Of a DNA stretch of 46,787 nt, positions 8,346 through 35,540 are shown in pieces (position 1 is the first letter of the stretch; the number at the start of each line of letters is the position of its first letter). Position numbers and translations under genes: made by a program. The stretch is from an uncultured Spirochaetota bacterium (GTDB lineage: Bacteria > Spirochaetota > UBA4802 > UBA5550). The DNA lies in assembly GCA_937872225.1 (NCBI GenBank), contig CALMRZ010000044.1, positions 1-46,787 of the forward strand, written 5' to 3'. The notes beneath the pieces are model-generated. The model saw nothing but the letters and a program-made list of their open reading frames with translations. It was not told the origin of the DNA and searched no databases.

Positions 8346-8559
8346 TTCTGACGGCCGTGGTTTTCTCGGACGGCCGGACATAAAAGCCGTCGCGCGCTCC
8401 TTCGGAACGCTCTACGGCGTTTTTTCACGGGAAATCCCCGCTTTCAATATTTTTTACCTCGCGCGGCCCCCCTTTCAATTTCTTGACAGTAATTGCCATG
8501 CATGCTTTAATGTAATCAGACGTTTTTTCATAACCTATCATGATTTGGGTGCTGTACTT

Positions 8560-9903
8560 ATGCGCGCAGTGATACTCGGCGCCGGGGTCGTGGGGGTGCA
8601 GATCGCAACCCAGCTGATCTCCGAGGGCAAGGATGTCGTGATAATCGAGAAAGACCCGGAACGGGCCAAATACGTCGCGGGCAGGCTCGACTGCATCGTG
8701 GTGAACGAGGAGGGCGCCGGGATCTCGGCGCTGAGGCACGCCGGCCTGGATGAATCCTCCATTTTCATCAGCGTCACCAATTCCGACGAGGTCAACATGA
8801 TCGCCTGCGGCCTGGTGGCGAGCGAATTCAACGCGCCGGTGAAAATAGCCCGGGTGAGGAACCTCGACTATTCCCGGGCCAAGATCATGGAAAAGTCTTT
8901 TCTCGGGATTGATTATATCGTCAATTCCGAGGTGGAGACGGCGCGGCAGATCGCCAATACCATAGCCCTGGGCGCCGACAGCGACGTGATGCTCTTCGAG
9001 AACACCGATCTCCAGATGAGGAACGTCGTGGTCAGCATGGCGTCTTATTTCGCCAACAAGGCCGTGAAGGACATCCGCCACGGCATAAAGGAGCCCTTCC
9101 TCATGGCGGGCATCGTGCGCGACAACGAATTCATAATTCCGACGGGAGACACCGTCATCAGGGAGCATGACAACATCTACCTCCTGGCCACGCAGAAGGA
9201 CTTCACGCGGATATTCATCCAGGCGGGAAAGCGGCAGGAGACGATAGACCGCATCGCCATCGTGGGGGGCGGCCGCATCGGCGAGCTGGCCTGCCAGTAC
9301 CTGATCAGGACCGGGAGGAACATGACCATCATCGAGACGAATTACGACCGCTGCAAGGTCCTCTCGGACCGGTTCCCCGACGCCCTGGTGCTGAACGCCG
9401 ACATATCGGACGAAACCATTTTCGAGGAGGAGGACCTCGGCAGCCGCGACCTGATGGTGGCCGTCACGGACAACCAGGAACTCAACATGCTGGCGAGCCT
9501 CTACGCCAAGATCATGGGGGTCAAGCGGACCATCGCCCTGGTGACCAACGCGGGGTACCTCTCCATCGCGTCGCGCCTCGACATCGACGTGGCCATCAGC
9601 CCTAAAAACAGCACCGTCGACGCCATCATGAAGTACATCAGGCGGGGGAACATCAAAAGCCTCCACAGCATCTTCGGCGGCAAGGCGGAGGTCATCGAGT
9701 TCCTCGCTAACGAAAAAAGCGGCATGGTGGGCAGGCGCCTCAGGGACCTCGAGTTCCCGAAGCAGTCCCTCATCCTGTCCGTGGTCCGCGGCGAGAAGAA
9801 CATCCTCCCCCACGGCAACATGGCTGTTGAACCGGGGGACCTGGTCCTCATGGTGGCGGCCAAGGATTCGATCGCCGAAATCGAACGGTTCATCCAGGAC
9901 TGA
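8560..9903 (+). CDS. trkA: Trk potassium uptake system regulatory subunit TrkA
   Basis: A 447-residue cytoplasmic protein made of two RCK modules, each an N-terminal nucleotide-binding Rossmann domain plus a TrkA-C domain. The first begins MRAVILGAGVVGVQIATQL with GxGxxG. The second begins near residue 230 with IAIVGGGRIGELACQYLI. TrkA binds NAD(H)/ATP and gates the TrkH channel. Length matches full-length TrkA. The ATG at 8560 fits the family N-terminus; a TTG five codons upstream is possible but unneeded. trkH follows 13 bp downstream, so the pair is an operon. Confidence 0.95.
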   Translation: MRAVILGAGVVGVQIATQLISEGKDVVIIEKDPERAKYVAGRLDCIVVNEEGAGISALRHAGLDESSIFISVTNSDEVNMIACGLVASEFNAPVKIARVRNLDYSRAKIMEKSFLGIDYIVNSEVETARQIANTIALGADSDVMLFENTDLQMRNVVVSMASYFANKAVKDIRHGIKEPFLMAGIVRDNEFIIPTGDTVIREHDNIYLLATQKDFTRIFIQAGKRQETIDRIAIVGGGRIGELACQYLIRTGRNMTIIETNYDRCKVLSDRFPDALVLNADISDETIFEEEDLGSRDLMVAVTDNQELNMLASLYAKIMGVKRTIALVTNAGYLSIASRLDIDVAISPKNSTVDAIMKYIRRGNIKSLHSIFGGKAEVIEFLANEKSGMVGRRLRDLEFPKQSLILSVVRGEKNILPHGNMAVEPGDLVLMVAAKDSIAEIERFIQD

Positions 9904-9916
9904 CGGGCGGAGCGCC

Positions 9917-11368
9917 ATGAATCCCCTTGTACTTGCAAAAATAATTTCAATACTCCTCATAATCATTTCCTGCTTCATGGCGGTACCGGCGGGGATCGCC
10001 CTCTACTGCGGCGAGGAACGTTCCTTTGCCGCCTTTGCGGCGACCATTGCCGTCACCGCGGCCTGTTCTGCCGCGGTATTTTTTATACTGAGAAAGAAGA
10101 GGGCCGGGTCACTGTCGACCCGGGACGGGTTCCTCATGGTCACCCTGAGCTGGGTGCTGGCGTCACTCATCGGCGCCATGCCCTTTTACCTTTCGGGGAG
10201 CATCCCCTCCTTTACGGACGCCTTTTTCGAGACCATATCGGGATTCACCACGACCGGCGCGTCCATTCTAACCGACATCGAGTCGCTCCCCCGGTCCATG
10301 CTCTTCTGGCGCTCCCTCACCCACTGGCTGGGGGGGATGGGGATCGTCGTCCTCACGGTGGCCATCCTGCCCCTCATGGGCGTCGGGGGACTGCAGCTCA
10401 TCCAGGCGGAAGCGCCGGGCCCCACGGTGGACAGGCTCACGCCCCGCATCGCCGGAACCGCGAAGCTCCTCTGGTTCATCTATGTCGGTTTTACCGTGGC
10501 GGAAACGCTCCTCCTTGTGCTGGGGGGTATGGACCTCTTCGACGCCCTGACCCATACCTTCGGCACCCTGGCGACCGGTGGGTTTTCGGTGAAAAACGCC
10601 GGCGTGGGTCACTACAAATCAGCCTATATAGACGGAGTCATCACGGTGTTCATGCTTCTCGCCGGCATCAACTTCACCCTGCATTTCCGGTTCATCACCG
10701 GCAGGTTCAAGCCGATATTGAGGGACACGGAATTAAAAGCGTATTTGCTGATATTCGCTACAGCAACCGCTGTGGCGGCCTTTTCTCTTTACGGGAATAT
10801 TCACCATACGGTGGGAGAGTGTATCAGGTATGCCTCATTCCAGACGGCCAGCATATTGACTTCAACCGGGTTTGCTTCAGAGGATTTTGAACAATGGCCG
10901 CTCCTCGGCCAGATCATTCTCTTCATGCTCATGTTTGTCGGGGGTTGCACCGGTTCAACATCGGGCGGCATCAAGGTGATGCGAATCGTCGTGCTCTTCA
11001 AACAGGCTGTCAATGAAATGAAGCTCCTGTTACATCCGCGGGGAGTGTTTACCCTGAAGCTGAGCGGCGGTATGGTTAAAAAGGATATTGTCTATTCCGT
11101 TTCAGGGTTCTTTTTTCTTTATATCGCTGTGCTGCTCACGGTAACGGCAATCGTGGCTTCGGCCGGGCATGATATAACCACGTCTTTTACGGCAGTCTTG
11201 ACAACGCTGGGGGGAATCGGGCCCGGCTTCGGCAAGGTTGGGCCGATGGACAATTATTCTTTTCTGGAGGATTACGTCAAGTGGGCCCTTTCCTTCGCCA
11301 TGCTGGCGGGCCGCCTGGAACTCTACACGGTCCTCGTTATCTTTCTGCCCGGTTTCTGGCGCCGGTGA
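9917..11368 (+). CDS. trkH: Trk potassium uptake transmembrane subunit TrkH
   Basis: A 483-residue membrane protein, the usual length for TrkH. It has four membrane-pore-membrane repeats whose selectivity-filter segments are visible: GFTTTGAS, LATGGFSVKN, LTSTGFASEDF and LGGIGPGFGKVG. The repeated Ser/Thr-Gly at each filter fits a K+ channel-like transporter. The N-terminus MNPLVLAKIISILLIIIS forms the first helix. The ATG at 9917 has GGCGGAG upstream and directly follows trkA. Together they make a complete Trk system for K+ uptake. Confidence 0.95.
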   Translation: MNPLVLAKIISILLIIISCFMAVPAGIALYCGEERSFAAFAATIAVTAACSAAVFFILRKKRAGSLSTRDGFLMVTLSWVLASLIGAMPFYLSGSIPSFTDAFFETISGFTTTGASILTDIESLPRSMLFWRSLTHWLGGMGIVVLTVAILPLMGVGGLQLIQAEAPGPTVDRLTPRIAGTAKLLWFIYVGFTVAETLLLVLGGMDLFDALTHTFGTLATGGFSVKNAGVGHYKSAYIDGVITVFMLLAGINFTLHFRFITGRFKPILRDTELKAYLLIFATATAVAAFSLYGNIHHTVGECIRYASFQTASILTSTGFASEDFEQWPLLGQIILFMLMFVGGCTGSTSGGIKVMRIVVLFKQAVNEMKLLLHPRGVFTLKLSGGMVKKDIVYSVSGFFFLYIAVLLTVTAIVASAGHDITTSFTAVLTTLGGIGPGFGKVGPMDNYSFLEDYVKWALSFAMLAGRLELYTVLVIFLPGFWRR

Positions 11369-11384
11369 CGGTTTACTCCGTTCC

Positions 11385-11412
11385 GCCCCCTCAATCCCCC
11401 AGGGGGGGACCT
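11385..11412. repeat. Degenerate copy of the 28-bp GC-rich repeat
   Basis: GCCCCCTCAATCCCCC at the start of this stretch, followed by a G run and GACCT, matches the 28-bp unit at 11452-11479 with a few changes. It lies just after trkH in the same orientation as that copy. Confidence 0.5.
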
Positions 11413-11451
11413 GGAAAACCGGAACCAGCCAATAAAGGGGCCGTCCTACAA

Positions 11452-11479
11452 GCCCCCTAAATCCCCCGGAGGGGGACTT
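11452..11479 (+). repeat. 28-bp dispersed repeat, copy 1
   Basis: The unit begins GCCCCCTAAATCCCCC and ends GGAGGGGGACTT; its inner part is self-complementary. An identical 28-base copy lies in opposite orientation at 15574-15601. Both are intergenic, at the 3' ends or leaders of genes. The type is unknown; it may act as a hairpin. Confidence 0.75.
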
Positions 11480-11558
11480 GTTTGTAGAGTGCTTGCCTTA
11501 AAAGCCTTCCTCTGGTGGGTCGGAGGGTGTTATGAGACACACCCATGCTCCCCTGAAC

Positions 11559-12863
11559 CTACGATTCCTCGAAGCGCACCCTGACCGATCCGCCGTGCTT
11601 GTCCTGGAAGCCTTCCACTTCCGACATGGCGCCCACCGGGCCGCGGGCATGGGCCAGGGCCTGGGGCGACACGAGCTGGTAGGTGGTGCGGCGCATGAAG
11701 GTCTCCACGGACGTGCCCGAGGAGAAGCGCGCGGCGCCCCCCGTGGGCAGTATGTGGTTCGTGCCGGAGAAGTAGTCCCCCACGGCCACCGGCGCGTAGT
11801 CCCCCAGGAAGAGGGAGCCCACGTTCCTGATCCGTTCCAGCCACTCCATCGGCTTCTCCACCATGACCTCCATGTGCTCCGGGCCGTAGCGGTTGGAGAA
11901 CTCGACCGCTTCCGCGATGTCCTCGACGAGCAGGATGAGGCCGCTCTTGTCAATCGATGCTTTCTTTATGGCGTGCCTGCCGACCCCCGACGCCAGGTCT
12001 TTTTCAATTTCATCGCGCACCTTCTCCGCCAGATCCCGGGAGGGTGTGAGGAGGATGGCGATGGCCATTTCGTCGTGCTCGGCCTGGGAGAGCAGGTCCC
12101 AGGCGACCCATCGGGGGTTGGCCCGGCCGTCGGCGATGATGAGGACCTCGCTGGGGCCCGCCATGGAATCGATCTGGACCGCCCCCAGGCTGAAGAGGTA
12201 GGTCTTGGCCGCGGTCACGTAAATGTTCCCCGGCCCCACGATGATGTCGGCCTTGCGTACGCTCTCCGTGCCGAGGCCGGCCGCCGCTATTCCCTGGGCG
12301 CCGCCCGATTTGACCACGGCGGTGACGTTGAGCATGCTGCAGACGGCGCCGACAATGTCCGGGAGCCGCCCGTTTTTCGCCGGCGGGGTGATGAGGGTGA
12401 TGTTCCCGACGCCGGCGATCTGCGCCGGGATGACGCCCATGAGCACCGACGAGGGGTAGGAGGCCTTGCCGCCGGGCACGTAGACCGCGGCGCTTTCGAT
12501 GGCCTCGTACTTGACGCCCAGGACCGAGCCATCGCTCCGCTCCTGGCGGATGTTGTCCCTGACCTGGAGCCGGTGGAATTCCTCTATGTTGCGCTTTGCC
12601 TCCAGGAAGGCGCTGTAGAGTTCCTGGGGGGTGTTCCTCCGGCCCGCCTCGATCTCCTCGGGGGCGGCGATGATTGAATCGAGCTTCACGCCGTCGAATT
12701 TTTCGGTGTACCCGGCCACGGCGCGGTCTCCGTTCTTCCGCACGTCGTTGATGATCGGTATGACCGTGTCGATCATGACGGAGGTGAAGTCCTCGCCGAA
12801 GCGGTTGAAGAGACGGTTAAGCTCGGCGGTGGTGAGGTCGCTCAATGTTCTGATGGGGATCAT
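11559..12863 (-). CDS. hisD: Histidinol dehydrogenase
   Basis: This 434-residue zinc enzyme performs the last two steps of histidine synthesis, oxidising L-histidinol to L-histidine with two NAD+. Family signatures are plain: YVPGGKASYPSSVLMGVIP, GGAQGIAAAGLGTES, GPGNIYVTAAK, DSMAGPSEVLIIADG, LLSQAEHDE (zinc-ligand region), SNRYGPEHMEV (catalytic Glu-His) and GTNHILPTGGAARF. Length is normal. GGAGGAG precedes the ATG. No other his gene is nearby, so it is a detached biosynthetic gene. It converges with trkH. Confidence 0.97.
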   Translation of the reverse strand: MIPIRTLSDLTTAELNRLFNRFGEDFTSVMIDTVIPIINDVRKNGDRAVAGYTEKFDGVKLDSIIAAPEEIEAGRRNTPQELYSAFLEAKRNIEEFHRLQVRDNIRQERSDGSVLGVKYEAIESAAVYVPGGKASYPSSVLMGVIPAQIAGVGNITLITPPAKNGRLPDIVGAVCSMLNVTAVVKSGGAQGIAAAGLGTESVRKADIIVGPGNIYVTAAKTYLFSLGAVQIDSMAGPSEVLIIADGRANPRWVAWDLLSQAEHDEMAIAILLTPSRDLAEKVRDEIEKDLASGVGRHAIKKASIDKSGLILLVEDIAEAVEFSNRYGPEHMEVMVEKPMEWLERIRNVGSLFLGDYAPVAVGDYFSGTNHILPTGGAARFSSGTSVETFMRRTTYQLVSPQALAHARGPVGAMSEVEGFQDKHGGSVRVRFEES

Positions 12864-15554: not shown

Positions 15555-15573
15555 TGCGTACCGATGAACACTA

Positions 15574-15601
15574 AAGTCCCCCTCCGGGGGATTTAGGGGG
15601 C
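15574..15601 (-). repeat. 28-bp dispersed repeat, copy 2 (inverted)
   Basis: All 28 bases equal the reverse complement of 11452-11479. The copy begins AAGTCCCCCTCCGGGGG and ends ATTTAGGGGGC. It lies in the gap between kinase and regulator genes. Confidence 0.75.
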
Positions 15602-15705
15602 AATGGGGTTTGCCTTATATATTATAATAGTAAACATTTAGATTATCTGTCAATAATGAATCAGGGGATTTAGGGAATAACAGATTCCGCTATGGCTTGC
15701 TCCGT

Positions 15706-24533: not shown

Positions 24534-24628
24534 ACTGTCCCACTTTGAAAAAAACAGTCCAGCATAAATTTTTTCAAATAATCAATTCTCATTCGTTATT
24601 ATTCATAAACACGAAAAAGGAGAATTAT

Positions 24629-25222
24629 ATGCCTCGACCATTAAGAAATATTGCACAGGGATCAACCCATCACATTTTCAGCCGATGCCATGGCCGAAGA
24701 AACCTTCTTCAGGGTAAATATGGGAAAATATATTTCATTGAGGCCATCAACATGTGCCAGGAAAAATATGATTTTGAGTTAATTGCCGCAGAAATAGTGG
24801 CAAATCACATACACCTTATCATTAAAACATGTGAAGGAAAGGAAACAATTTCCCGCATCATGCAATATACTAAGGCAAGAATTGCAGAAAAATACAACAG
24901 GGCCATGGGAACAACCGGGGCTTTTTGGAATGAGCGTTTCGGATCGACCGTGATTGAAGAGGCGGACAATCCTGAAGAATATTTTTTATGGCTGTTGTGG
25001 TACATTGGGTATAATCCAGTGAGGAAAGGACTGTCGCGGGATCCGCGTAAAAATGATATTGGATTTATTAACTGTTATCTTGATAAAAATTACAAACCTC
25101 TTATCAAGATTACACTACATAATTATTTTCTCAAGCTAGGAAAAACCTTTGATGAATGCGTTAAGGCTTTTCTCTTTTATGAAGAGGCTTACCGTAAGAG
25201 GCTGGCTGTGTATTATAAATAA
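24629..25222 (+). CDS. REP-associated tyrosine transposase (RAYT, IS200-like Y1)
   Basis: A 197-residue Y1 transposase. It begins MPRPLRNIAQGSTHHIFSRC and has the metal-binding HxH as NHIHLII (His 60 and 62). A tyrosine-bearing helix follows near residues 118-128 (EEYFLWLLWYIGYNPVRKGL), matching the YI..NPVRAGL block of RAYT proteins. These enzymes bind and cut short palindromic REP sequences as single strands. Motifs GGGGTCAGAGC flank the gene on both sides. GC content is clearly lower than in neighbouring genes, suggesting acquisition. AAAAAGGAG precedes the ATG. The gene looks intact. Confidence 0.85.
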   Translation: MPRPLRNIAQGSTHHIFSRCHGRRNLLQGKYGKIYFIEAINMCQEKYDFELIAAEIVANHIHLIIKTCEGKETISRIMQYTKARIAEKYNRAMGTTGAFWNERFGSTVIEEADNPEEYFLWLLWYIGYNPVRKGLSRDPRKNDIGFINCYLDKNYKPLIKITLHNYFLKLGKTFDECVKAFLFYEEAYRKRLAVYYK

Positions 25223-25319: not shown

Positions 25320-27425
25320 TTATTGCACCCCGCCATAATAACCGCTTTTGCCGGCCGCGCCGGGATTGCCGGCTGAAGCGCCTCCTGCCCCCCCGGAACC
25401 GTGATTTAGCGTAGGAGTTGAACCGGACAATATAATTCCGGAAGACCAACCGCCTTTATATATCGTAAAAGAGGGTCCTCCGGCGCCGCCGCCGCCGTGA
25501 CCGCCGGTGCCGCCCTTTCCGCCATGGCCGCCATGGCCGCCGGCTCCGACTTCATCAGTATCAGCATTCCCGCCATTGCCGCCTTCACCGCCATCGCCGC
25601 CTTCACCGCCGTTGCTGCCTTCACCGCCGCCACCGCCGCTGCCACTGGTAATTGTGCAGTTTGTTATTGTTACAACCGAATCATTTAAAAAAATGCCGAA
25701 GGACGCGCCACCGCCGCCGCCGCCGTGACCGCCGGTCCCACCTGTGCCGCCGGCTCCGCCGCCGCCGCCGTTGCCAATACCATAATATTCAAATATAGGC
25801 AGCGAACCCGTAATAGGAACAGGTGTAGTCCATACCTGTTGCCCGCCTCCGGCGCCTCCACCGCCCCCGCCACGTCCATGCTGGCCATTCCCTCCATTAA
25901 CACCGATCGATGTAAACCAGAGGCTGCCGGTGATTGACCCTCCTGAGCCACCGGTGCCATTGGTGCCAACGGAGCCGTTCAATCCATCACTTCCCGGAGA
26001 GCCATCGGTAGCGCTTTGCAATTCAATTACTTGAGTATATCCATATGTCCCTCCGGCACCTCCGCCCCCTCCCAGGGTAAGGGATCCAACCAATCCATTA
26101 TTACCGGCAGAACCGTTTTCACCATTGATGCCATTTCCTCCATTGCCGCCTCCTGATCCGATACCAGATGCGCTACCGGCTCCTCCTGCAACATATTCAT
26201 TGCAATCCCCGCTTATAACATCTGCAAGTGAGCAGCCACAATCATCAATTCCATCCGCTCCTGTCCCACCTTGTCCGCCATTACCGGCCTTCTCAATAGT
26301 TGATCCATTCAATCCAGCAGCGCCATTCCCGGCTGTTATAATGCAATTTTTCAATTCCACCGTGCTGTTTATCAGCCTTACCCCATAGGAGCCATCCCCT
26401 CCCGTCGTGGCATTGGCGCTGGTGATGGTTAATCCATCGACGACAATGCCATTAACGGCGTTACCATCAACCGCGATGGTTCCGCCCTGAATAGTGGTCG
26501 TATATAAGGGAGTTACTGAGGACTTAAAAGTGTCCCGTTCCCATGTGGATGGATCAAAACCTCCGAAGAGGCTTACACCGTCGGCCAATGTCACGCTTTC
26601 ATTATATGAACCCGCGCTCACGTACACATCGCTTCCGGCAGACCGGGCAGCGATCATGGCCGCACCAATGGTCTTCAAAGGCCTGGCGTGGGTGCCTTCG
26701 TGGGTGTCATCGCCCGTTGTCGCCACATAGATCCCGGCCCCGCCTTTTTTCATGACAAAAATATATACGCGGTCGGCAAAGCTGTCGCCGGAACCGTCAT
26801 CGACCCGCAGATCATAGGCGATCGTGCATACCTCCAGCGGAGCGGTGATGGAGGGATTGCTCCCGGTAAGGATGCCGGTCCCGATCGTAGGACCGTATAT
26901 CTGGGTCCAGGTGTACGTCAGTATGTCATTTTCAAGATCTGAGCTGCCGCTCCCGTCCAGTGTCAGGGTATCGCCGATGGTCACCTCCCGGTCGACGCCG
27001 GCATCGGCCGTGGGTCCGTTATTGACGGCAACGTCCACGGTCACCGTATCAGTGGCGGAAGCAGACCCGTCATTGACGGTTAGCAGTATCTCATAGGTCC
27101 CGGCCGTGTCAAAGGTGAAGGACGTGGCCGCGCCGGACGGTTGTGAGAATGAAAAATTGCTCCCTGTTGGCTGATATCTCACCGTCCATGAATAGGCGAG
27201 ATCCTTTCCTTCGGGATCGCTGCTCTCCGATCCATCCAGGTCGACGCTACCCTTCAATATGCTGACCCTCTGGTCGGGGCCGGCATCGGCGACCGGCGTG
27301 GCATTTCCTCCAAGCAATGACGGAATCAGGACCAGGCCTTGGCTCTTTTTTTCATTATCGCATTCTGTAACAATGCCGCAGGCTATGATCAACGCCAGTG
27401 TTGTGAGTTTTTTTCCGTAATTCAT
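25320..27425 (-). CDS. Glycine-rich PKD/DUF1565 beta-helix lipoprotein, paralogue 3
   Basis: A 701-residue protein. The signal peptide MNYGKKLTTLALIIACGIVT leads to a Cys at residue 22, aligned with Cys 22 in its two paralogues. Two PKD-like domains follow (ADAGPDQRVSILKGSVDLDG and ADAGVDREVTIGDTLTLDGS; about 45-215). Then comes a DUF1565-type beta-helix entry (GIYVATTGDDTHEGTHARPL ... VYVSAGSYNESVTLADGVSL) and a C-terminal half in which beta-helix rungs (VVTITNCTITSGSG) are separated by long GGxGG blocks. The architecture suggests a surface-displayed adhesin or scaffold; the function is unknown. It is the last gene of three tandem paralogues, 26 bp after the second. Confidence 0.85.
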   Translation of the reverse strand: MNYGKKLTTLALIIACGIVTECDNEKKSQGLVLIPSLLGGNATPVADAGPDQRVSILKGSVDLDGSESSDPEGKDLAYSWTVRYQPTGSNFSFSQPSGAATSFTFDTAGTYEILLTVNDGSASATDTVTVDVAVNNGPTADAGVDREVTIGDTLTLDGSGSSDLENDILTYTWTQIYGPTIGTGILTGSNPSITAPLEVCTIAYDLRVDDGSGDSFADRVYIFVMKKGGAGIYVATTGDDTHEGTHARPLKTIGAAMIAARSAGSDVYVSAGSYNESVTLADGVSLFGGFDPSTWERDTFKSSVTPLYTTTIQGGTIAVDGNAVNGIVVDGLTITSANATTGGDGSYGVRLINSTVELKNCIITAGNGAAGLNGSTIEKAGNGGQGGTGADGIDDCGCSLADVISGDCNEYVAGGAGSASGIGSGGGNGGNGINGENGSAGNNGLVGSLTLGGGGGAGGTYGYTQVIELQSATDGSPGSDGLNGSVGTNGTGGSGGSITGSLWFTSIGVNGGNGQHGRGGGGGGAGGGQQVWTTPVPITGSLPIFEYYGIGNGGGGGAGGTGGTGGHGGGGGGASFGIFLNDSVVTITNCTITSGSGGGGGEGSNGGEGGDGGEGGNGGNADTDEVGAGGHGGHGGKGGTGGHGGGGAGGPSFTIYKGGWSSGIILSGSTPTLNHGSGGAGGASAGNPGAAGKSGYYGGVQ

Positions 27426-27451
27426 AGGGTTTTCCCCTTATTCTGTTCCCA

Positions 27452-29482
27452 TTATCCGCCATGCTGGCCGGAATCACCGGCATCGCCCGCGTTGCCCGAC
27501 GACGCGCCCCCTGACCCCATGGATCCATAGTTCAATGTTGTGTTATCAGTATTAATTACCGCAAACCACCCTACTTTATATATAGAGAAGGAGGGGCCTC
27601 CGGCGCCGCCGCCGCCGTGTCCGCCACGGCCGCCTGTCCCGCCTGCGCCTCCAGCTCCGGCTCTGCCAAGATTTTCATAGTCATCACCCGTTCTATCGCC
27701 GCCGGCGCCGCCTCCTCCGCCTGGTCCGCCAGGGCCGCCATTGCCGCCTTTCCCGCCATTGCCGCTTGAGATGGTGCAGTGAGTGACCGTTACGATGGAT
27801 TCGATCATGAAAAGACCGAAAGACGCGCCGCCGCCGGCTCCTCCGGGAGCGCCGCCTCCGCCGCCTCCGCCGGCGCCTCCTCCTCCTCCGGGACCTTTCT
27901 CATAACCGCCCTGAGTGCTCCCGCCGCCTCCTCCGCCGCCGCCTCCGCCCTGGCCCGGACCGCCGTCTTCTCCCGCGGAACCGACTGATGAAATCCATTT
28001 ACCGTTTATCACCGAGCCCGATGATCCGCCCGCGCCGTTAGTGCCCGCCGGTCCGGTTGCGCCGGTGTTCCCATTGTTGCCGTCCTCGCCGTCATGGTCA
28101 TAAAAATAATCGGACCTGCCTCCCGTACCGCCCAGGCCTTGGCCCATGGATTCGAGGAGACCTGTTTTACCGTTATTTCCGTTATAAATGTCGCCATACC
28201 CGCCGATTCCTCCCTTGCCGCCGGTTCTTCCCACGTCAGATACGCCGCCGGCTCCACCCCAGCCCCATTCGGTGTCGTTCTCGCCATAGTCAAAATAACC
28301 GCCGTCATTGCCCGGCCCGCCTTTGCTTCCTGCGGCGCCGGTTGCTCCCGGAGCGGTGATATTCGCTCCATCACGGCCCGGTGCTCCATTTCCCGCCGTG
28401 ATGGCGCAATCGTTGATCGCAACGGTGCTGTATTTCAGGCGCACCGCGTATGAACCCTCTCCATAACCGACGGCGTCGGCGCTATTGATAACGATACCAT
28501 CGAGTACGAGATTGCCGACCCCGTTTCCATCAACGGCCGTGGTTCCGCCATGTATCGTCGACTGATATGACGATGTATCGCGTTCCCATGTCCCATGAAG
28601 AAAACCGCCGTATATGCTCACGCCATTGGCAAGCGCCACGCTTTCCCCGTAGTCCCCGTCGCTCACGTACACATCATATCCCGCCGCATTGGCCGCGGTT
28701 ATCGCCCCCTGGATCGTCTTCTTGGGAGCCGTCCGTGTCATTCCATCGTTGGCATCGTCTCCAATAGCTGTTGACGCGTATATGCCGGCGCCGCCCTTTT
28801 CCATGACATAAATATATACGCGGTCCGGAGCGGAGTTACCACCGCCGTCATCGACCTGGAGATCATAGACGATGGTGCAGACTCCCGATGGCGCGGTAAA
28901 TGTCGGGGTTGCGCCGGTCAGCGTGCCCGTGCCGATGGCGGGACCGCTGACCTGGGTCCAGGTATAGGCAAGGGTATTGTTTTCTGGATCGGTGCTGCCG
29001 CTGCCGTCCAGGGTCACGACATTGCCGGCGGTAACCTCCTGATCGGCTCCCGCGTCGGCGGCAGCGGCGACATTGGTCCCGACGTTGACGGTCACCAGGT
29101 CCGACGCGGAGCGCGAACCGTCATTCACGGTAAGCCTGATTTCGTAGGTGCCCTCGAGATCGAAGCTAAGGGTCGTCGTTGCTCCGGCACTGTTCGAAAA
29201 AGAAGCGGCGCTTCCCGCGGGCTGAAATACCAGGGTCCACGCGTAGGTGAGGTCCTTGCCTTCGGGGTCATGGCTCCCCGATCCATCGAGATCGACGCTT
29301 CCGGAGGTCCCTGAAAACAGATATGTCGTCCGGTCAGCGCCCGCGTCGGCTACGGGCGCCTGGTTGGGTATAAATTGATTCAAACCCAGCATCAATCCAC
29401 GATAATCACGCTCACCGCAATAAGCCATGAAGAAACTGGCTGCTATTACGGCGATTGCGGCGCACAATTTCCTGAATTTCAT
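27452..29482 (-). CDS. Glycine-rich PKD/DUF1565 beta-helix lipoprotein, paralogue 2
   Basis: A 676-residue protein with the same plan as its neighbours: signal peptide MKFRKLCAAIAVIAASFFMA with Cys 22, PKD-like 1 (ADAGADRTTYLFSGTSGSVD), PKD-like 2 (ADAGADQEVTAGNVVTLDGS), DUF1565-type segment (VYVSDGDYGESVALANGVSI, YGGFLHGTWERD), then interleaved beta-helix rungs and glycine blocks (GGAGGGGGGGAPGG). It ends SSGNAGDAGDSGQHGG. ATG at 29482 is chosen since the signal peptide begins here and GGGGAA lies eight bases upstream; a longer in-frame start would overlap paralogue 1. Nearly every spacer codon is GGN, giving GGC/GCC-rich DNA. Confidence 0.85.
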   Translation of the reverse strand: MKFRKLCAAIAVIAASFFMAYCGERDYRGLMLGLNQFIPNQAPVADAGADRTTYLFSGTSGSVDLDGSGSHDPEGKDLTYAWTLVFQPAGSAASFSNSAGATTTLSFDLEGTYEIRLTVNDGSRSASDLVTVNVGTNVAAAADAGADQEVTAGNVVTLDGSGSTDPENNTLAYTWTQVSGPAIGTGTLTGATPTFTAPSGVCTIVYDLQVDDGGGNSAPDRVYIYVMEKGGAGIYASTAIGDDANDGMTRTAPKKTIQGAITAANAAGYDVYVSDGDYGESVALANGVSIYGGFLHGTWERDTSSYQSTIHGGTTAVDGNGVGNLVLDGIVINSADAVGYGEGSYAVRLKYSTVAINDCAITAGNGAPGRDGANITAPGATGAAGSKGGPGNDGGYFDYGENDTEWGWGGAGGVSDVGRTGGKGGIGGYGDIYNGNNGKTGLLESMGQGLGGTGGRSDYFYDHDGEDGNNGNTGATGPAGTNGAGGSSGSVINGKWISSVGSAGEDGGPGQGGGGGGGGGGSTQGGYEKGPGGGGGAGGGGGGGAPGGAGGGASFGLFMIESIVTVTHCTISSGNGGKGGNGGPGGPGGGGGAGGDRTGDDYENLGRAGAGGAGGTGGRGGHGGGGAGGPSFSIYKVGWFAVINTDNTTLNYGSMGSGGASSGNAGDAGDSGQHGG

Positions 29483-29498
29483 CGCATGTTCCCCGGTT

Positions 29499-31388
29499 TT
29501 AATTACTGTCACCGCAATAACCGTCATGGCCCTGGTTTCCGGCTGAGCTTCCCCCCGTCCCTCCGGATCCGGGATTTACCCTTGTGATTGTAATAATTGC
29601 TATAGATGTTCCGTTTTTATATGTCACTATTGACGGGCCTCCGGCGCCCCCGCCGCCATGGCCGCCGGCGCCACCATTCCCTCCGGCGCCGCCATTGCCG
29701 CCGCTGCCGCTCGTAAGATCGCAATTTGTAACAGTTACTACCGAATCGATCAGGAGCAGGCAGATAGAGGCTCCGCCGCCGCCGCCGAGGCTGCCGCCTT
29801 TTCCTCCGGCGCCTCCACTACCACCACCACCGCCGCCATTGCCTGTGCCATCAACGGCGGCATGGATTCCTGGCCACACGTTTTGACCGCCGCCACCGCC
29901 GCCTCCGTTTCCCGGTTCGCCATCAATTCCGGCACCACCGGGAGTTGAAACCCATAGATTGCTGATAATTGACCCTGAAGATCCTCCTGATCCACTGGAG
30001 CCATTGGTGCCTTTGGCTCCAGGGCTGCCGGCATACCCCGTTCTCCCCCTGGAAGTCGAGGCGCCTCCGTCCCCTCCCGGTGTTACAGGACTGCCGCTGC
30101 CATTGAGTCCGTAACTGCCGTCATTGCCGTTATTTTCGTCGTATCCGCCGGCTCCGCCGTTGCCACCATTACTGCCCGCCGGGGACGCGCCGCCTGCTCC
30201 GCCATAGGCATCTATCTCGCTATCCTCCCGTCCTTCTCCGCCCTGCGATCCGGCGGAACCATTGGCGCCGGCGGCGCCGTCCGCTCCATTCTGGCCCGGA
30301 GCGCCGTTGCCGGCCGTGACAATGCAATCATTAAACACGACGTTGCTGTTTATCAGGCGTACTCCATAGGAGCCTCCGCCCGCCGCCGTGGCGTTGGCAC
30401 TGGTGACGGAGAGGCCGTCGATAACACAATTATTCACGGCATTGCCGTCAACGGCGATGGTCCCTCCCTGCACGCTGCTACGGAACGATGTGATGTCACG
30501 CTCCCACGTGGTATGGAGAAAGCCGCCGTAGATGCTTACCCCGTTCGCCAGGGTCAGGCTTTCCCCGTAGTCCCCGTCGCTCACGTACACGTCGGCGCCC
30601 GCCGCCAGGGCAGCGGTAATGCCAGCCTGGATCGTTTTTTTGGGGGCTGCGCGAGTCATGCCGTCATTGGCGAAGTCGTCGCCGGTTGTCGATACGTATA
30701 TGCCGGCACCCGACTTTTTCATAACGAAAATATACACCCGATCAGACAGGCTGTTTCCCGATCCGTCATTTACGGAAAGATCATAGACGATGGTGCAGGC
30801 TTCCGATGGGGCGGCAAAGGTGGGATTGGCGCCGGTGAGGGTCCCGGCGCCGACGGCCGGACCGCTTACCTGGGTCCAGGTGTAGGTGAGAGAATCGCCT
30901 TCCGGGTCCGTGCTTGCGCTCCCGTCCAGCACCACGATATCGCCGAAACCGACTTCCTGGTCCGGCCCGGCGTTTGCCGCGGCGTCGGTGTTGTCCCCCA
31001 CGTTCACGGTCACCAGGTCAGAGGCCGTGCGCGAACCGTCGCTCACGGTGAGCATGATCTCGTAGGTTCCCGCGGTGTCAAAGGTCAGAGTCGTCTTGAC
31101 ATTGGCCGGGTCGGAAAATGAAGCGGCGCTTCCCGACGGCCGGTGGACTATTTCCCATGAATAGGAGAGGTCCTTCCCTTCAGGATCAAAGCTTTTTGAT
31201 CCGTCCAGGTCGGCGCTCCCGGTATAGAGGTAAATATTTTTATCGGCCCCGGCTTTTGCTACCGGCAGCTGGTTGATTGACATGACGGGTCCCTGCAGCA
31301 ATCCCTGCTTCTTGTCCGCGCCGCATTGGACCAGTATCCCGCAGGCCATGACGGCCGCGATCACTATGAGTTTATAACGGTATTTCAT
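29499..31388 (-). CDS. Glycine-rich PKD/DUF1565 beta-helix lipoprotein, paralogue 1
   Basis: A 629-residue protein, the first of the three in transcription order. Signal peptide MKYRYKLIVIAAVMACGILV with candidate lipidated Cys 22 (Cys 16 is also possible). PKD-like domains begin at AKAGADKNIYLYTGSADLDG and NAGPDQEVGFGDIVVLDGSA. The DUF1565-type block (GIYVSTTGDDFANDGMTRAA, VYVSDGDYGESLTLANGVSI) and glycine-interrupted beta-helix follow. It is nearly collinear with paralogue 2 through residue 330 and diverges in the glycine part. No clear ribosome-binding site precedes the ATG (an A-rich stretch is there). It lies 63 bp after the frame that continues the barrel gene, so one operon is likely. 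Confidence 0.85.
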   Translation of the reverse strand: MKYRYKLIVIAAVMACGILVQCGADKKQGLLQGPVMSINQLPVAKAGADKNIYLYTGSADLDGSKSFDPEGKDLSYSWEIVHRPSGSAASFSDPANVKTTLTFDTAGTYEIMLTVSDGSRTASDLVTVNVGDNTDAAANAGPDQEVGFGDIVVLDGSASTDPEGDSLTYTWTQVSGPAVGAGTLTGANPTFAAPSEACTIVYDLSVNDGSGNSLSDRVYIFVMKKSGAGIYVSTTGDDFANDGMTRAAPKKTIQAGITAALAAGADVYVSDGDYGESLTLANGVSIYGGFLHTTWERDITSFRSSVQGGTIAVDGNAVNNCVIDGLSVTSANATAAGGGSYGVRLINSNVVFNDCIVTAGNGAPGQNGADGAAGANGSAGSQGGEGREDSEIDAYGGAGGASPAGSNGGNGGAGGYDENNGNDGSYGLNGSGSPVTPGGDGGASTSRGRTGYAGSPGAKGTNGSSGSGGSSGSIISNLWVSTPGGAGIDGEPGNGGGGGGGQNVWPGIHAAVDGTGNGGGGGGSGGAGGKGGSLGGGGGASICLLLIDSVVTVTNCDLTSGSGGNGGAGGNGGAGGHGGGGAGGPSIVTYKNGTSIAIITITRVNPGSGGTGGSSAGNQGHDGYCGDSN

Positions 31389-31451: not shown

Positions 31452-31640
31452 TCACAGGTCATTGTCCCGTTTCAAATTTTCCTTTTTCAGAACTTCCTCT
31501 TTAAGGGTTTCCTTTTCATTTTTATCATCATGACTCCGCAGCATGACATTCGTTCTGGACTTTTCCAGCCTGTACATCACTCCGACGGACAGATATCCCG
31601 CAAGTGAATTCATGTAATCAAGCCTGTGGCGCGGTACAGA
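31452..31640 (-). pseudogene. In-frame 3' continuation of the barrel gene after an internal TGA
   Basis: Directly after the TGA at 31641-31643 the same frame stays open for 62 codons to a TGA at 31452-31454. It reads SVPRHRLDYMNSLAGY, then LSVGVMYRLEK, a clear amphipathic membrane strand, and a charged tail (KEEVLKKENLKRDNDL). This looks like the missing last barrel strand plus a periplasmic tail. The ancestral gene was therefore probably 62 codons longer. Confidence 0.55.
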
Positions 31641-32216
31641 TCATTCATAGAACATCCCCCCTTCGAAAATAAAGGACAGTGTTTCCATTACATGGTAATT
31701 CAATCCCAGGACGATTCCGGGAGAAAAGAGGCGCGGGATCACAATGTTGATATCCCTGCTCCAGAGGTTGTTCGGATAATAGACCGATGATATGCTGACT
31801 CCGGCCCAGGCGCGGACCGACCTGTTGCGGAAGAAGGCGAATCCCACTGTATTTTTGAGGCTCAGGCGGAAGGCGTGTCCGTGGGTCAGGGGAGGCACGT
31901 AGTTATATTCCGCCCAGATGATGTCGGGCGGCCGGGGATATCTGAATTCGTCGAATCCCACCTGGAGCCTGTAATTTACCAGGGAATCGCCGCCGGGGCA
32001 GGTATCGAATACCAGCCCGGCGCCGTAGAGATAATTCATGCCCCTGAAATAGAAATCCAGGTACACGGGGGCGGACGCGTACAGGTAATATTTCTTTAAC
32101 CGCGATTCCCCGATTCCGCCGTTGAAATAGACGCCGAGGCCGTAGGCGGATAGGGGCTGCGAAGAGACAAGCAGTATAAAAAAAGCGAGTGGAGTCAGTA
32201 AAAGTTTATTCCGCAC
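31641..32216 (-). CDS. Outer-membrane beta-barrel-like protein, ended by an in-frame TGA
   Basis: A 191-residue product with a signal peptide (VRNKLLLTPLAFFILLVSSQ, then PLSAYG) and short amphipathic strands (AYGLGVYFNGGIGESRLKKY, FRLSLKNTVGFAFFRNRSV, VLGLNYHVMETLSFIFEGGM). A GTG at 32216 with AGGGGTG upstream is the likely start; an ATG at 32366 would add a segment lying at the predicted transcription start. The frame stops at TGA 31641-31643 but the code continues beyond (see 31452-31640). The family is unknown. It lies downstream of a LytTR-type operator and promoter and upstream of the three lipoprotein genes. Confidence 0.6.
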   Translation of the reverse strand: MRNKLLLTPLAFFILLVSSQPLSAYGLGVYFNGGIGESRLKKYYLYASAPVYLDFYFRGMNYLYGAGLVFDTCPGGDSLVNYRLQVGFDEFRYPRPPDIIWAEYNYVPPLTHGHAFRLSLKNTVGFAFFRNRSVRAWAGVSISSVYYPNNLWSRDINIVIPRLFSPGIVLGLNYHVMETLSFIFEGGMFYE

Positions 32217-32372
32217 AATGGCACCCCTGCTCTGAGTTCTAGGCTCCCTTGACAGATATGCCCCATCGTGAGGACTGAACAGACCTCCTCCTTTTTCGGA
32301 TAATACAGGGAAGTTGCAATAGAGCATGCATAATGTTATGAAAAATTTGACAAAGCCCACCCACAAGGGCCT

Positions 32373-32456: not shown

Positions 32457-33796
32457 TTATTGCATTTTTTTTCTCAGGGAATCCAGGAAAGCCGCTCCCA
32501 CCGGGAGCTCTGTTTCGTCATCGTCCCTGAGGCGTACGCGGTAACGGCCTGAAATCATGTGGGAAAGGCTGTGGATGTATCGCAGATTTATTACATGGCT
32601 TTTATGGATCCTGCCAAAGAGGTCCGGCGGGAGGCGGTCTATGATATCCTTTATAAGAACGGGAACCTCTGTATCCCCTTCCACGGTGTGGAGCACGCAG
32701 TTTTTTGAATGGGACGTGATATATATTATTTCTTTAAATATAAAGGAATAGACCCTGTCCCGGCCGCGGATGGTGATGCCCTCCGTGGCGGATTTCCGTA
32801 TGCTTCTGATCTTCAGCATGGTGCCCACGCGCGCACGGAGCTCGCTTACCCGGAAGGGCTTCACGATGTAATCGTTGGCCCCGGCATTGAAGGCCGCGTT
32901 GATGTCGGCCATCATGTTCTTCGCCGTGAGCATTATCACGGGAAGCTCTTCCGGGGGCCGGCTGAGGCGTATCCTCCTGCACACGTCATACCCGGACATG
33001 ACCGGCATCATGATGTCCAGGAGGACCAGGTCGACGGGCTCTCCGCTCTCGATGATGTTGAGGGCGTTGACGCCGTCCAGGGCGGTTTTCACGACGCATC
33101 GCTTTGCTTCAAAATAATTCTGTACGACCCTGACGCAGACCGGATCATCATCAACAACGAGAATCACCGGGTTATCGGTAAAGGCGCCGTTACTCGCTCC
33201 GGCGGAAAGCCCGACCGGCGTACCGTCCGGCGTCGCCGCGGCCAGATCGGCGATTATCTCGATCTCCTCCGTTTCGGGGGCCGCCTCCTTCGACGCCGGC
33301 AGGGTGAAAATGAATACCGATCCCCCATCCCGGCCCGGTTCCACCTGTATGGCGCCGTTATGGAGCTCGATGATCTGCTTTGCTATGGCAAGGCCCAGGC
33401 CGGTGCCGGGATACAGGCGGGTATCGTTTCCATCAACCTGCCGGTAGGGTTCGAATATTTTCTCCCGGTATTCCTCCGGGACCCCGATGCCCGTGTCCGA
33501 TACGCGCACTTCGATCATGGTCCCGTCTTCATCTTCGCCGCCGGTCCCGTGGATGATGCGGGCCGACAATTCAATCGTCCCGCTGATCGTGAACTTGACG
33601 GCATTCCCGACCAGATTGCACAGCACCTGCCGGATGCGGTCTTCATCTGCGTGCGCGGCGGGGATATCCGGCCTGATGCTGTTTATTAAGGCCAGGTGCT
33701 TCCCGGCGGTCAGGGGCATCGAAAGCCTGATCACCATCTCGGCCAGGGAATGCAGGTTCACCGGCTTCTGGTTAAGGCTCAGTCCCTCGTCCTGGA
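32457..33796 (-). CDS. Hybrid histidine kinase, C-terminal part: HATPase-REC-LytTR (after frameshift)
   Basis: This frame continues the kinase at 33779-35314 and has no start of its own. Its first residues (KIQDEGLSLNQKPVNLHSLAE) are the normal link from HisKA to HATPase. The ATPase has NLVGNAVKFT (N box) and TGIGVPEEY / TGLGLAIAKQ (G boxes). The receiver has ILVVDDDPVCVRVVQ and the phospho-Asp in DLVLLDIMMPVMSGYD. The last 100 residues are a LytTR DNA-binding domain (IIYITSHSKNCVLHTVEGDT, FGRIHKSHVINLRYI). Kinase, receiver and DNA-binding output thus lie in one chain. The candidate operator lies 5 bp after its stop codon. Confidence 0.85.
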
Positions 33797-35314
33797 TTTT
33801 CGCCAGTCAAGGATGTCATTGACCATGTTCGCAAGGCGATGTCCGCTCGAGGCGATGAGGGAGAGGTTTTCACGCGCTTCAGGGGACATGCTGCCGGCGG
33901 CGCCTTCCAGCATGGACTCCGACAGGCCTATCATGCCGTGGAGGGGAGTGCGCAGCTCGTGGGACGTGGTGGCGAGGAACTGGTCCTTGAGCCGGTCCAG
34001 GTTCCGGAGGGTGATGTTCTTTTCGGCGAGGTCCTTCGACAGCTCCTCGACCCGCCAGAGGGCCCTGGAATACCTCCGCGAGATGACGATGGTGATGACG
34101 ATGCTGAGCATGACGACCCCGTACTGGGTAAGCGTCGTGGTGTTGACGACCCACATGGCGTACAGTATATCATTGACAGCCCCGATGAACACGGGCGTGA
34201 AACCAAAGATAAACAGTATGGCATCTTCCCTCCGCTTTATTATTACTTTGGCCAGCACATAGGCATTGTATATAATAAGGATGAAGCCCAGGAAATAATA
34301 GACTTTTATCAACTCTTCCGCCGTTTTGAAATCCACAAAAAGAAGCACGGGAACATGCAGGACGGCCACGATCTGATAAAACCTGACGAAATATATCGAC
34401 ATGTCATCGGGAAACAATGACTTGACGGTCATCAGGATAAAAGGGACGTAGATGACGATAGTAATATAATTCAGATAATAGGGGTACCGTGGAATAGTCA
34501 GGCCATCGGGCAGCAGGGGGAATTGGTGATTGAGCGTATTAATGGCCAGGATAAGACAATACGTCCCAAAATAAAGGGAGGCCGAATCCTGGCGACGAAA
34601 AAAATATGACAGTATATTGATGACGGACGCGAAGATAAGCAGGCCGAAAAGGACCATGTCGATTGTGTAACTTCGCTTCATGTTTTGCTCGAAGTTCGCG
34701 TTATTTTCCAGCAGGATGGACCGGTCGATGCCACCCGATCCGTAATCGCGGTTGAACACCTGGATGATGATCTCGTTCGTTCCTTCGTTCATCGTGAAGG
34801 AGGAATTTCTTTTATTATGAATGAATATATAATTCTCCGGGACTTTCGAGGTCTCGTCGATCGATCCCCGTTCGTCGACCAGCTTCTTGTTGATCCAGAG
34901 CCGGTACGCCGAGTAAACGCGCTGGATGGTCACGGTTTTCAGCGTCGCATCCCCACCGCCGAGAATCCGCAGGCGATAAGTCGCCTGTCCATCGCCCGGC
35001 AGTGCGGCGCCCTTCACGATGCGGTTTTTCCATAATCCGGGTACGGTCATGTACCCGCAATCTTCCCGGGCAGCTGACGGGGTGATATCAGAGGGCTTGA
35101 GAAGCCTGTTCCAGTAGAATTCCCACTCGCCGTCAAGGGTGACGCCGCCGTCTTTGTTAAAGTCCCATCCCCTGAGATCGATGACGCCCCGGTGCGCAAC
35201 GGGTCTCGTTTTCCCCGCCGGATTATAGCCGCATCCGGTCATGGCCCCGGATGCCAGGCAAAAAAGGAGGCACAGGTAAGGAAGAATCCTTGCTGGCGAA
35301 ACGGAAGAATCCAT
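33779..35314 (-). CDS. 7TM (DISM-like) hybrid histidine kinase, N-terminal part (frameshifted)
   Basis: The frame codes for about 511 residues. A signal peptide with a lipobox-like MTGCG (near residue 25) leads to an extracytoplasmic jelly-roll-like domain (GVTLDGEWEFYWNRLLKPSD, TYRLRILGG, RLWINKKLVDERG) as in 7TMR-DISM receptors, then seven hydrophobic segments (about 245-430). The HisKA domain has LATTSHELRTPLHGMIG (phospho-His about 451) and stops at DILDWRKSRTRD. A single A lost from the A run (T 33797-33800 on the plus strand) explains the stop: with one more A the chain reads DILDWRKIQDEGLSLN into the next frame. The start ATG (35314) is the best fit to the signal peptide but has a weak ribosome-binding site. 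Confidence 0.8.
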   Translation of the reverse strand: MDSSVSPARILPYLCLLFCLASGAMTGCGYNPAGKTRPVAHRGVIDLRGWDFNKDGGVTLDGEWEFYWNRLLKPSDITPSAAREDCGYMTVPGLWKNRIVKGAALPGDGQATYRLRILGGGDATLKTVTIQRVYSAYRLWINKKLVDERGSIDETSKVPENYIFIHNKRNSSFTMNEGTNEIIIQVFNRDYGSGGIDRSILLENNANFEQNMKRSYTIDMVLFGLLIFASVINILSYFFRRQDSASLYFGTYCLILAINTLNHQFPLLPDGLTIPRYPYYLNYITIVIYVPFILMTVKSLFPDDMSIYFVRFYQIVAVLHVPVLLFVDFKTAEELIKVYYFLGFILIIYNAYVLAKVIIKRREDAILFIFGFTPVFIGAVNDILYAMWVVNTTTLTQYGVVMLSIVITIVISRRYSRALWRVEELSKDLAEKNITLRNLDRLKDQFLATTSHELRTPLHGMIGLSESMLEGAAGSMSPEARENLSLIASSGHRLANMVNDILDWRKSRTRD

Positions 35315-35540
35315 ACAATGATGAAAAAATGAAAGAGCAGGGGTGTCAAGACATTTCAGACAGTGAGCATGGCCGTGTCGTGCCCCCTTCTCTCTGTATC
35401 GTCCTCCGGCGGCAAGGACTTTCAACTCAGAAATGCAGAGAGCGCCGAAGGATCCGAAAACTCAGTGTTTCTCCGCGTCCTCCGCGGCTGTGTATTGATT
35501 AGAAGAAATCAGTATTGTGAGGGATTTTGCCGGTATTTAT

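Follow-up and report, generated by a model that had tools for sequence, protein, structure and literature searches.

A tandem array of three glycine-block proteins in a Spirochaetota bacterium: candidate lipoproteins with proposed variable binding heads, probably diversified by recombination

A 46,787-nucleotide contig from an uncultured Spirochaetota bacterium (CALMRZ010000044.1, analysed over its whole length and called the window below) carries at positions 25320-31388 three neighbouring genes whose products end in long glycine-rich halves. What are these proteins, and how did their glycine-rich halves come to differ when their N-terminal halves stayed close? We propose that they are three outer-membrane-anchored lipoproteins that would act as binding proteins, each with a beta-helix and polyglycine-II (PGII) head bearing variable loops, diversified by recombination and encoded in a relocating cassette. 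We give this reading a probability of about one half; its lipidation, surface exposure, beta-helix and PGII fold and binding function are parts that we infer.

As the original prediction had it, the three genes are tandem paralogues, with open reading frames (ORFs) on the minus strand at 29499-31388, 27452-29527 and 25320-27425 (629, 691 as listed, and 701 amino acids (aa)). The start of copy 2 that matches the other copies is an internal ATG at 29482, which gives 676 aa. Identity to copy 1 is 61% for copy 2 and 58% for copy 3. The genes are separated by only ~17 and ~26 bp and therefore probably form one operon. The ratio of nonsynonymous to synonymous divergence (dN/dS) of the window copies against their counterparts in a congener, genome G004, is ~0.12-0.31, indicating that the reading frames are real. 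Each protein consists, in order, of a hydrophobic leader with Cys22, two PKD domains, an entry domain of ~135 residues and a glycine-rich C-terminal half. The features are as follows, with L028 denoting the array locus of G004.

29499..31388, minus strand: copy 1, a putative PKD-PKD-entry domain-glycine-block lipoprotein, 629 aa; orthologue L028:11203-13188
30717..31268, minus strand: copy 1 residues 41-224, two PKD domains (PF22352, 6e-27, two stretches; PKD1 confidently modelled)
30309..30716, minus strand: copy 1 residues 225-360, DUF1565-like entry domain and first probable beta-helix rungs (hidden Markov model (HMM) match to L033; low-confidence strand triplets)
29502..30308, minus strand: copy 1 glycine-block half, residues 361-629, with rung-like stretches at 540-560 and 585-605 (alignment, model, glycine periodicity)
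27452..29482, minus strand: copy 2, 676 aa from the ATG at 29482; positional partner L028:9149-11182
27455..28390, minus strand: copy 2 glycine-block half (alignment, segmentation, glycine periodicity)
25320..27425, minus strand: copy 3, 701 aa; positional partner L028:6944-9127
25323..26327, minus strand: copy 3 glycine-block half (alignment, segmentation, glycine periodicity)

Using an alignment of six proteins, the three window copies (w1-w3, genome G000) and the three copies of G004 (g1-g3), we found that Cys22 is the sole leader cysteine common to all six, in agreement with the claim of a cysteine at this position in each protein; in copy 2 it falls at position 22 only if translation starts at the ATG at 29482. 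The start of a further relative, in genome G015, also has Cys22, and Cys16 is additionally present in five of the six aligned proteins. The array proteins may be lipidated at Cys22, a candidate lipobox cysteine. The two PKD-like domains claimed for each protein were recovered in the Pfam scan as two stretches of PF22352 per protein (E 8e-25 to 9e-27). The DUF1565-type entry was upheld by an indirect route. The DUF1565 Pfam model (PF07602) matched none of the window proteins at E 10 and nothing in the whole genome at E 1. However, the array profile matches residues ~156-262 of the protein L033 of genome G022 at E 2.7e-15, and Pfam calls the same stretch DUF1565 (E 4.5e-7). Because the entry domain aligns to a stretch that Pfam scores in this way, the DUF1565-type label holds at the level of sequence, through this intermediate. 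NF047854, the model of the LIC10774/LIC10365 surface protein with an equivalog cut-off of 380 bits, left the window proteins unmatched and gave relatives just 24-42 bits; that a Leptospira family matches relatives at all is in keeping with Spirochaetota as the phylum.

Beyond residue 360, glycine makes up 37-40% of the window proteins and recurs with a period of three, the probability of glycine at i+3 given glycine at i being 0.66-0.70 compared with a base of 0.37-0.40. In the six-protein alignment, stretches of invariant glycine alternate with segments of variable length (for example 8-21, 6-19, 8-20 and 14-28 residues). Aromatic residues account for 1.4% of the invariant stretches and 7.6% of the variable segments, the latter including rung-like stretches. 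The glycine blocks are short (4-19 residues); many are GGx or poly-G, and the first is G-x-x (GAPGxxGxxGxxG). The contrast originally described between close N-terminal halves and differing glycine halves also extends across species: in the copy-1 pair (G000 and G004), identity outside shared glycines is 83% in residues 1-360 and 35% beyond. Furthermore, non-glycine identity in the glycine half is nearly as low between positional partners as between paralogues. At residues 564-566 (~29691-29699), copy 1 is without a 32-residue glycine/loop block found in all five other proteins, which holds a TDExGAGG-like sequence in most of them.

The layout of the glycine half is shared well beyond these copies. 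In a collection with one genome per species, all three genes recur in unchanged order in the congener G004, and in G015, from another genus of the same family, a contig end preserves the leader and start of one copy. A phylum-wide profile search revealed long glycine-block proteins in families f22, f34 and others, as well as DUF1565-like proteins without glycine blocks in the array's own order and family. With an HMM of the glycine part of the array, ten distant proteins of the same phylum (G161, G188, G199, G207, G095, G107, G167, G176, G089 and G179) scored 162-242 bits, compared with at most 141 bits after shuffling of these proteins in blocks of 3 or 15 residues. In a tree of the entry domain with glycine columns trimmed, the array and other glycine-block proteins fell on one side of a branch (support 85/96). 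Since the distant scores exceed those of the shuffles and the entry domains group in this way, the order and placement of the glycine blocks are inherited, which favours a specific, conserved fold-like architecture and not loose low-complexity sequence. The distant proteins resemble the array in having the entry domain, glycine blocks and rungs in the same order, but no PKD pair was seen in them, their N-terminal regions are different, and they are single copies at the listed loci, some of 1300-1575 aa. In G010, another genome of the same family, two DUF1565-like beta-helix-type lipoproteins are encoded in tandem (L030:7479-9362 and 9758-11596, plus strand), with canonical-looking lipoboxes and without glycine blocks. 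Searches of plasmids, phages and viral contigs yielded no relative.

Synonymous sites indicated how the two halves came to differ. Background synonymous divergence (dS) between G000 and G004 is ~0.5-1.0, leaving out the ORF at 8425-9978, which is probably an antisense shadow of a plus-strand gene. For the copy-1 pair, the N-terminal half lies at this background (dS 0.49-0.61; identity 81-88% by domain), and the glycine half has a dS of 1.5-2.1. Four-fold degenerate sites differ at 29% in the N-terminal half versus 58% in the glycine half (p 7e-7), and random pairing of glycine codons would give 62%. At the border of the glycine half of copy 1, synonymous divergence climbs from the background level to saturation, and misalignment alone does not explain the step, as it is also seen in the C-terminal rungs, whose alignment is reliable. 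Either the glycine half of copy 1 was replaced or its N-terminal half was homogenised. In copy 2, residues 225-360 of w2 group with copy 1 (support 100/99), and the positional pair w2+g2 is rejected (approximately unbiased test, p-AU 0.004). From residue 533 to the end, grouping is by position and g2+w3 is rejected (p-AU 0.016); some of the tested groups were picked after viewing identities, so that these p values are somewhat optimistic. The conflict between the trees of the two halves of copy 2, together with the step in synonymous divergence of copy 1, supports recombination, either among the copies themselves or with alleles not seen here.

The repeats in the DNA had also been suggested to favour length change, by slippage or by recombination between copies. 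The recombination part of this suggestion fits the tree conflict and the dS step. Slippage is not supported as the main source of variation, since perfect tandem DNA tracts reach no more than 18-23 bp and multiples of three residues do not predominate among the indels of the aligned glycine region. The repeat arrays are imperfect.

The glycine half might instead be a fast-drifting, weakly constrained low-complexity spacer, with its variability reflecting relaxed constraint and no binding role. Similar glycine-rich domains, of the PE_PGRS type, are known to tolerate indels (PMC10216338), and the almost paralogue-level non-glycine identity of positional partners fits such drift. However, the glycine register, rungs and block order are kept in distant families at scores that none of the shuffles reached, dN/dS in the glycine half stays at ~0.13-0.34, and the synonymous sites of copy 1 are saturated in the glycine half only, which points to replacement rather than drift. 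We consider such a spacer unlikely.

Structure prediction was informative for PKD1, and the rest of the proteins came out at low confidence from shallow alignments. AlphaFold runs with the three paralogues as the alignment, which was too shallow, gave a predicted local distance difference test score (pLDDT) of 43, and the single sequence of the C-terminal part of copy 2 gave 35. Strand triplets in the copy 1 model (309-329, 339-358, 540-559 and 585-605) are themselves of low confidence and would fit the pattern expected of beta-helix rungs parted by glycine excursions. Polyglycine-II layers on a beta-helix are plausible, given the conserved layout and the analogy with the crystal structures of the phage adhesin gp38. 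Sequence searches of the PDB gave compositional collagen matches, PKD domains or no match.

The fold would differ if the glycine halves formed collagen-like triple helices or an extended fibre: the product would then be a filamentous protein of the surface or matrix, not a monomer with a PGII sandwich. The G-x-x pattern of the first block agrees with this, and the profile matches collagen chains at E values down to 1.6e-18. These matches are confined to profile positions ~125-323, though, and reflect composition; the blocks are short and parted by variable segments and rung-like stretches, and many are of the GGx or poly-G type, which is better suited to PGII than to collagen. A fibre of this kind is improbable in our judgement.

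Two genes on the same strand lie upstream of the array in the window.

31455..32228, minus strand: putative outer-membrane beta-barrel (OMP) gene, linked to the array in three genomes
32457..35425, minus strand: 7TMR-DISM histidine kinase-receiver-LytTR gene, split by a frameshift near 33761-33779

The OMP gene lies upstream of the array in G000, G004 and G015, and the G000 and G015 versions are 84% and 51% identical to that of G004. Traces of the 3' end of a LytTR-kinase gene adjoin the OMP gene in G015 and G004. The flanks of the array in the window map to contig C11 of G004, where the array itself is on C13, and the sequences flanking the G004 array match C16 and C59 of G000, there without the array; the cassette thus occupies different chromosomal places in the two genomes. 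The G004 site corresponding to the array's position in the window (L123, G004:C11:101500-111000) instead encodes a P-type cation ATPase, an acyltransferase and a Listeria-Bacteroides-repeat protein; gene content here is therefore not the same in the two species. The gene of an IS200-like (Y1_Tnp) transposase that resembles those associated with repetitive extragenic palindromic (REP) elements is located directly past the array (24545-25222, plus strand). Palindromic words of ~30 bp (CCCCCTCCGGGGG type) at 11440-11500 and 15560-15620 recur widely in related genomes, which suggests a REP-like element family.

The link to the OMP gene also bears on whether the products are periplasmic or surface carbohydrate-active proteins, that is, beta-helices that bind polysaccharides or resemble lyases and help to take up nutrients through the neighbouring OMP. 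Polysaccharides are the substrates of many right-handed beta-helices, and PKD-like domains occur in cellulose-binding proteins, a PKD-type Sde0182_C match being among the domain results of the window proteins. Against such a role, Pfam, NCBIfam and PDB gave no catalytic family for the window proteins, and the scan of the immediate neighbours recognised no carbohydrate-active genes, leaving it a slim possibility. An ice-binding protein, with PGII bundles on a lipoprotein, would recall the snow-flea and other springtail antifreeze proteins, whose known fold is PGII bundles of GGx helices, but its regular ice-binding face would be disrupted by the fast-evolving variable segments, so we regard it as most improbable.

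We return to the reading of the array as recombination-diversified, surface-anchored binding proteins. The products would be outer-membrane-anchored lipoproteins serving as adhesins or ligand receptors, with the lipid-anchored N-terminus and the two PKD domains as a stalk. The C-terminal half would fold as a right-handed beta-helix, with the glycine blocks breaking into the rungs at one corner and packing as polyglycine-II helices. The loops between these blocks, changing fast in sequence and length on a fixed glycine framework, would form the binding surface. Diversity would arise from recombination, the tandem copies trading segments with one another and with divergent alleles, and the putative OMP gene and the three lipoprotein genes would have moved around the chromosome together as one cassette.

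Several observations weigh against this reading. The residues at position -1 before Cys22 are Q, Y, T and E (S in G015), partly unusual for a lipobox. PKD1 alone was confidently modelled (10-residue block means mostly 76-91), and PDB sequence searches with the C-terminal half returned only compositional collagen matches and no homologue. The division into glycine and variable segments is partly set by the alignment itself: invariant stretches had to be ungapped by definition, which fixes their length from the outset, and the shuffle test is the independent support. Pairwise dN/dS is everywhere below 1 (0.08-0.34), and positive selection is therefore not shown. The array is absent from four other congeners and hence dispensable. 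In the window, the OMP gene is broken by an in-frame TGA at 31641-31643, with intact orthologues in G004 and G015, and the kinase gene is frameshifted, its G004 homologue (L124:744-3617) being one 957-aa frame; the frameshift could reflect true decay or an error of assembly.

The close counterparts among known systems include the gp38 tail-fibre adhesins of T2-type phages (S16, PP01), whose crystal structures show a beta-helix domain and a PGII sandwich with variable receptor loops, glycine motifs flanking hypervariable segments (PMC12892980). The array likewise alternates glycine motifs with variable segments, a segmentation that is partly circular. In contrast, its proteins are bacterial, with a lipoprotein-like leader, two PKD domains and no tail-fibre context. 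Searches with tblastn gave no phage match, and the gp38 PHROG was left unmatched too, the weak PHROG matches being confined to the PKD and entry regions. That the array is a bacterial-surface counterpart of gp38, in which a tandem array diversifies a PGII/beta-helix receptor-binding head by segment exchange, with the head kept phylum-wide and the cassette relocating with a partner OMP, is a tentative and rather doubtful proposal.

The blocks had been likened to those of the mycobacterial PE_PGRS proteins, whose domains have been modelled as PGII sandwiches (PMC9436101). The array is GGx-rich and has a lag-3 glycine periodicity, but even a loose PE_PGRS likeness is not supported, its brief blocks being interleaved with rungs in an order conserved across distant families, unlike a long uniform repeat. 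Membership of PE_PGRS is ruled out, as the Pfam scan shows only PKD-like domains and no PE domain. With the Leptospira DUF1565 proteins of the LIC10774-LIC10365 type (PF07602, NF047854), members of which are described as surface proteins binding host components, the array shares a lipoprotein context and an entry domain that is homologous via intermediates. However, both models miss the window proteins, and the DUF1565 relatives in the array's family and order have no glycine blocks. The window proteins are only distant relatives of these host-binding proteins, and nothing here points to an animal host. The array ties DUF1565 surface proteins to a glycine-block architecture. PGII scaffolds with variable loops are already known from phage adhesins and modelled for PE_PGRS; if our reading is true, the array family, with its fixed glycine framework, exchangeable loops and relocating tandem cassette, would be a further system for testing how such scaffolds carry variable binding sites.

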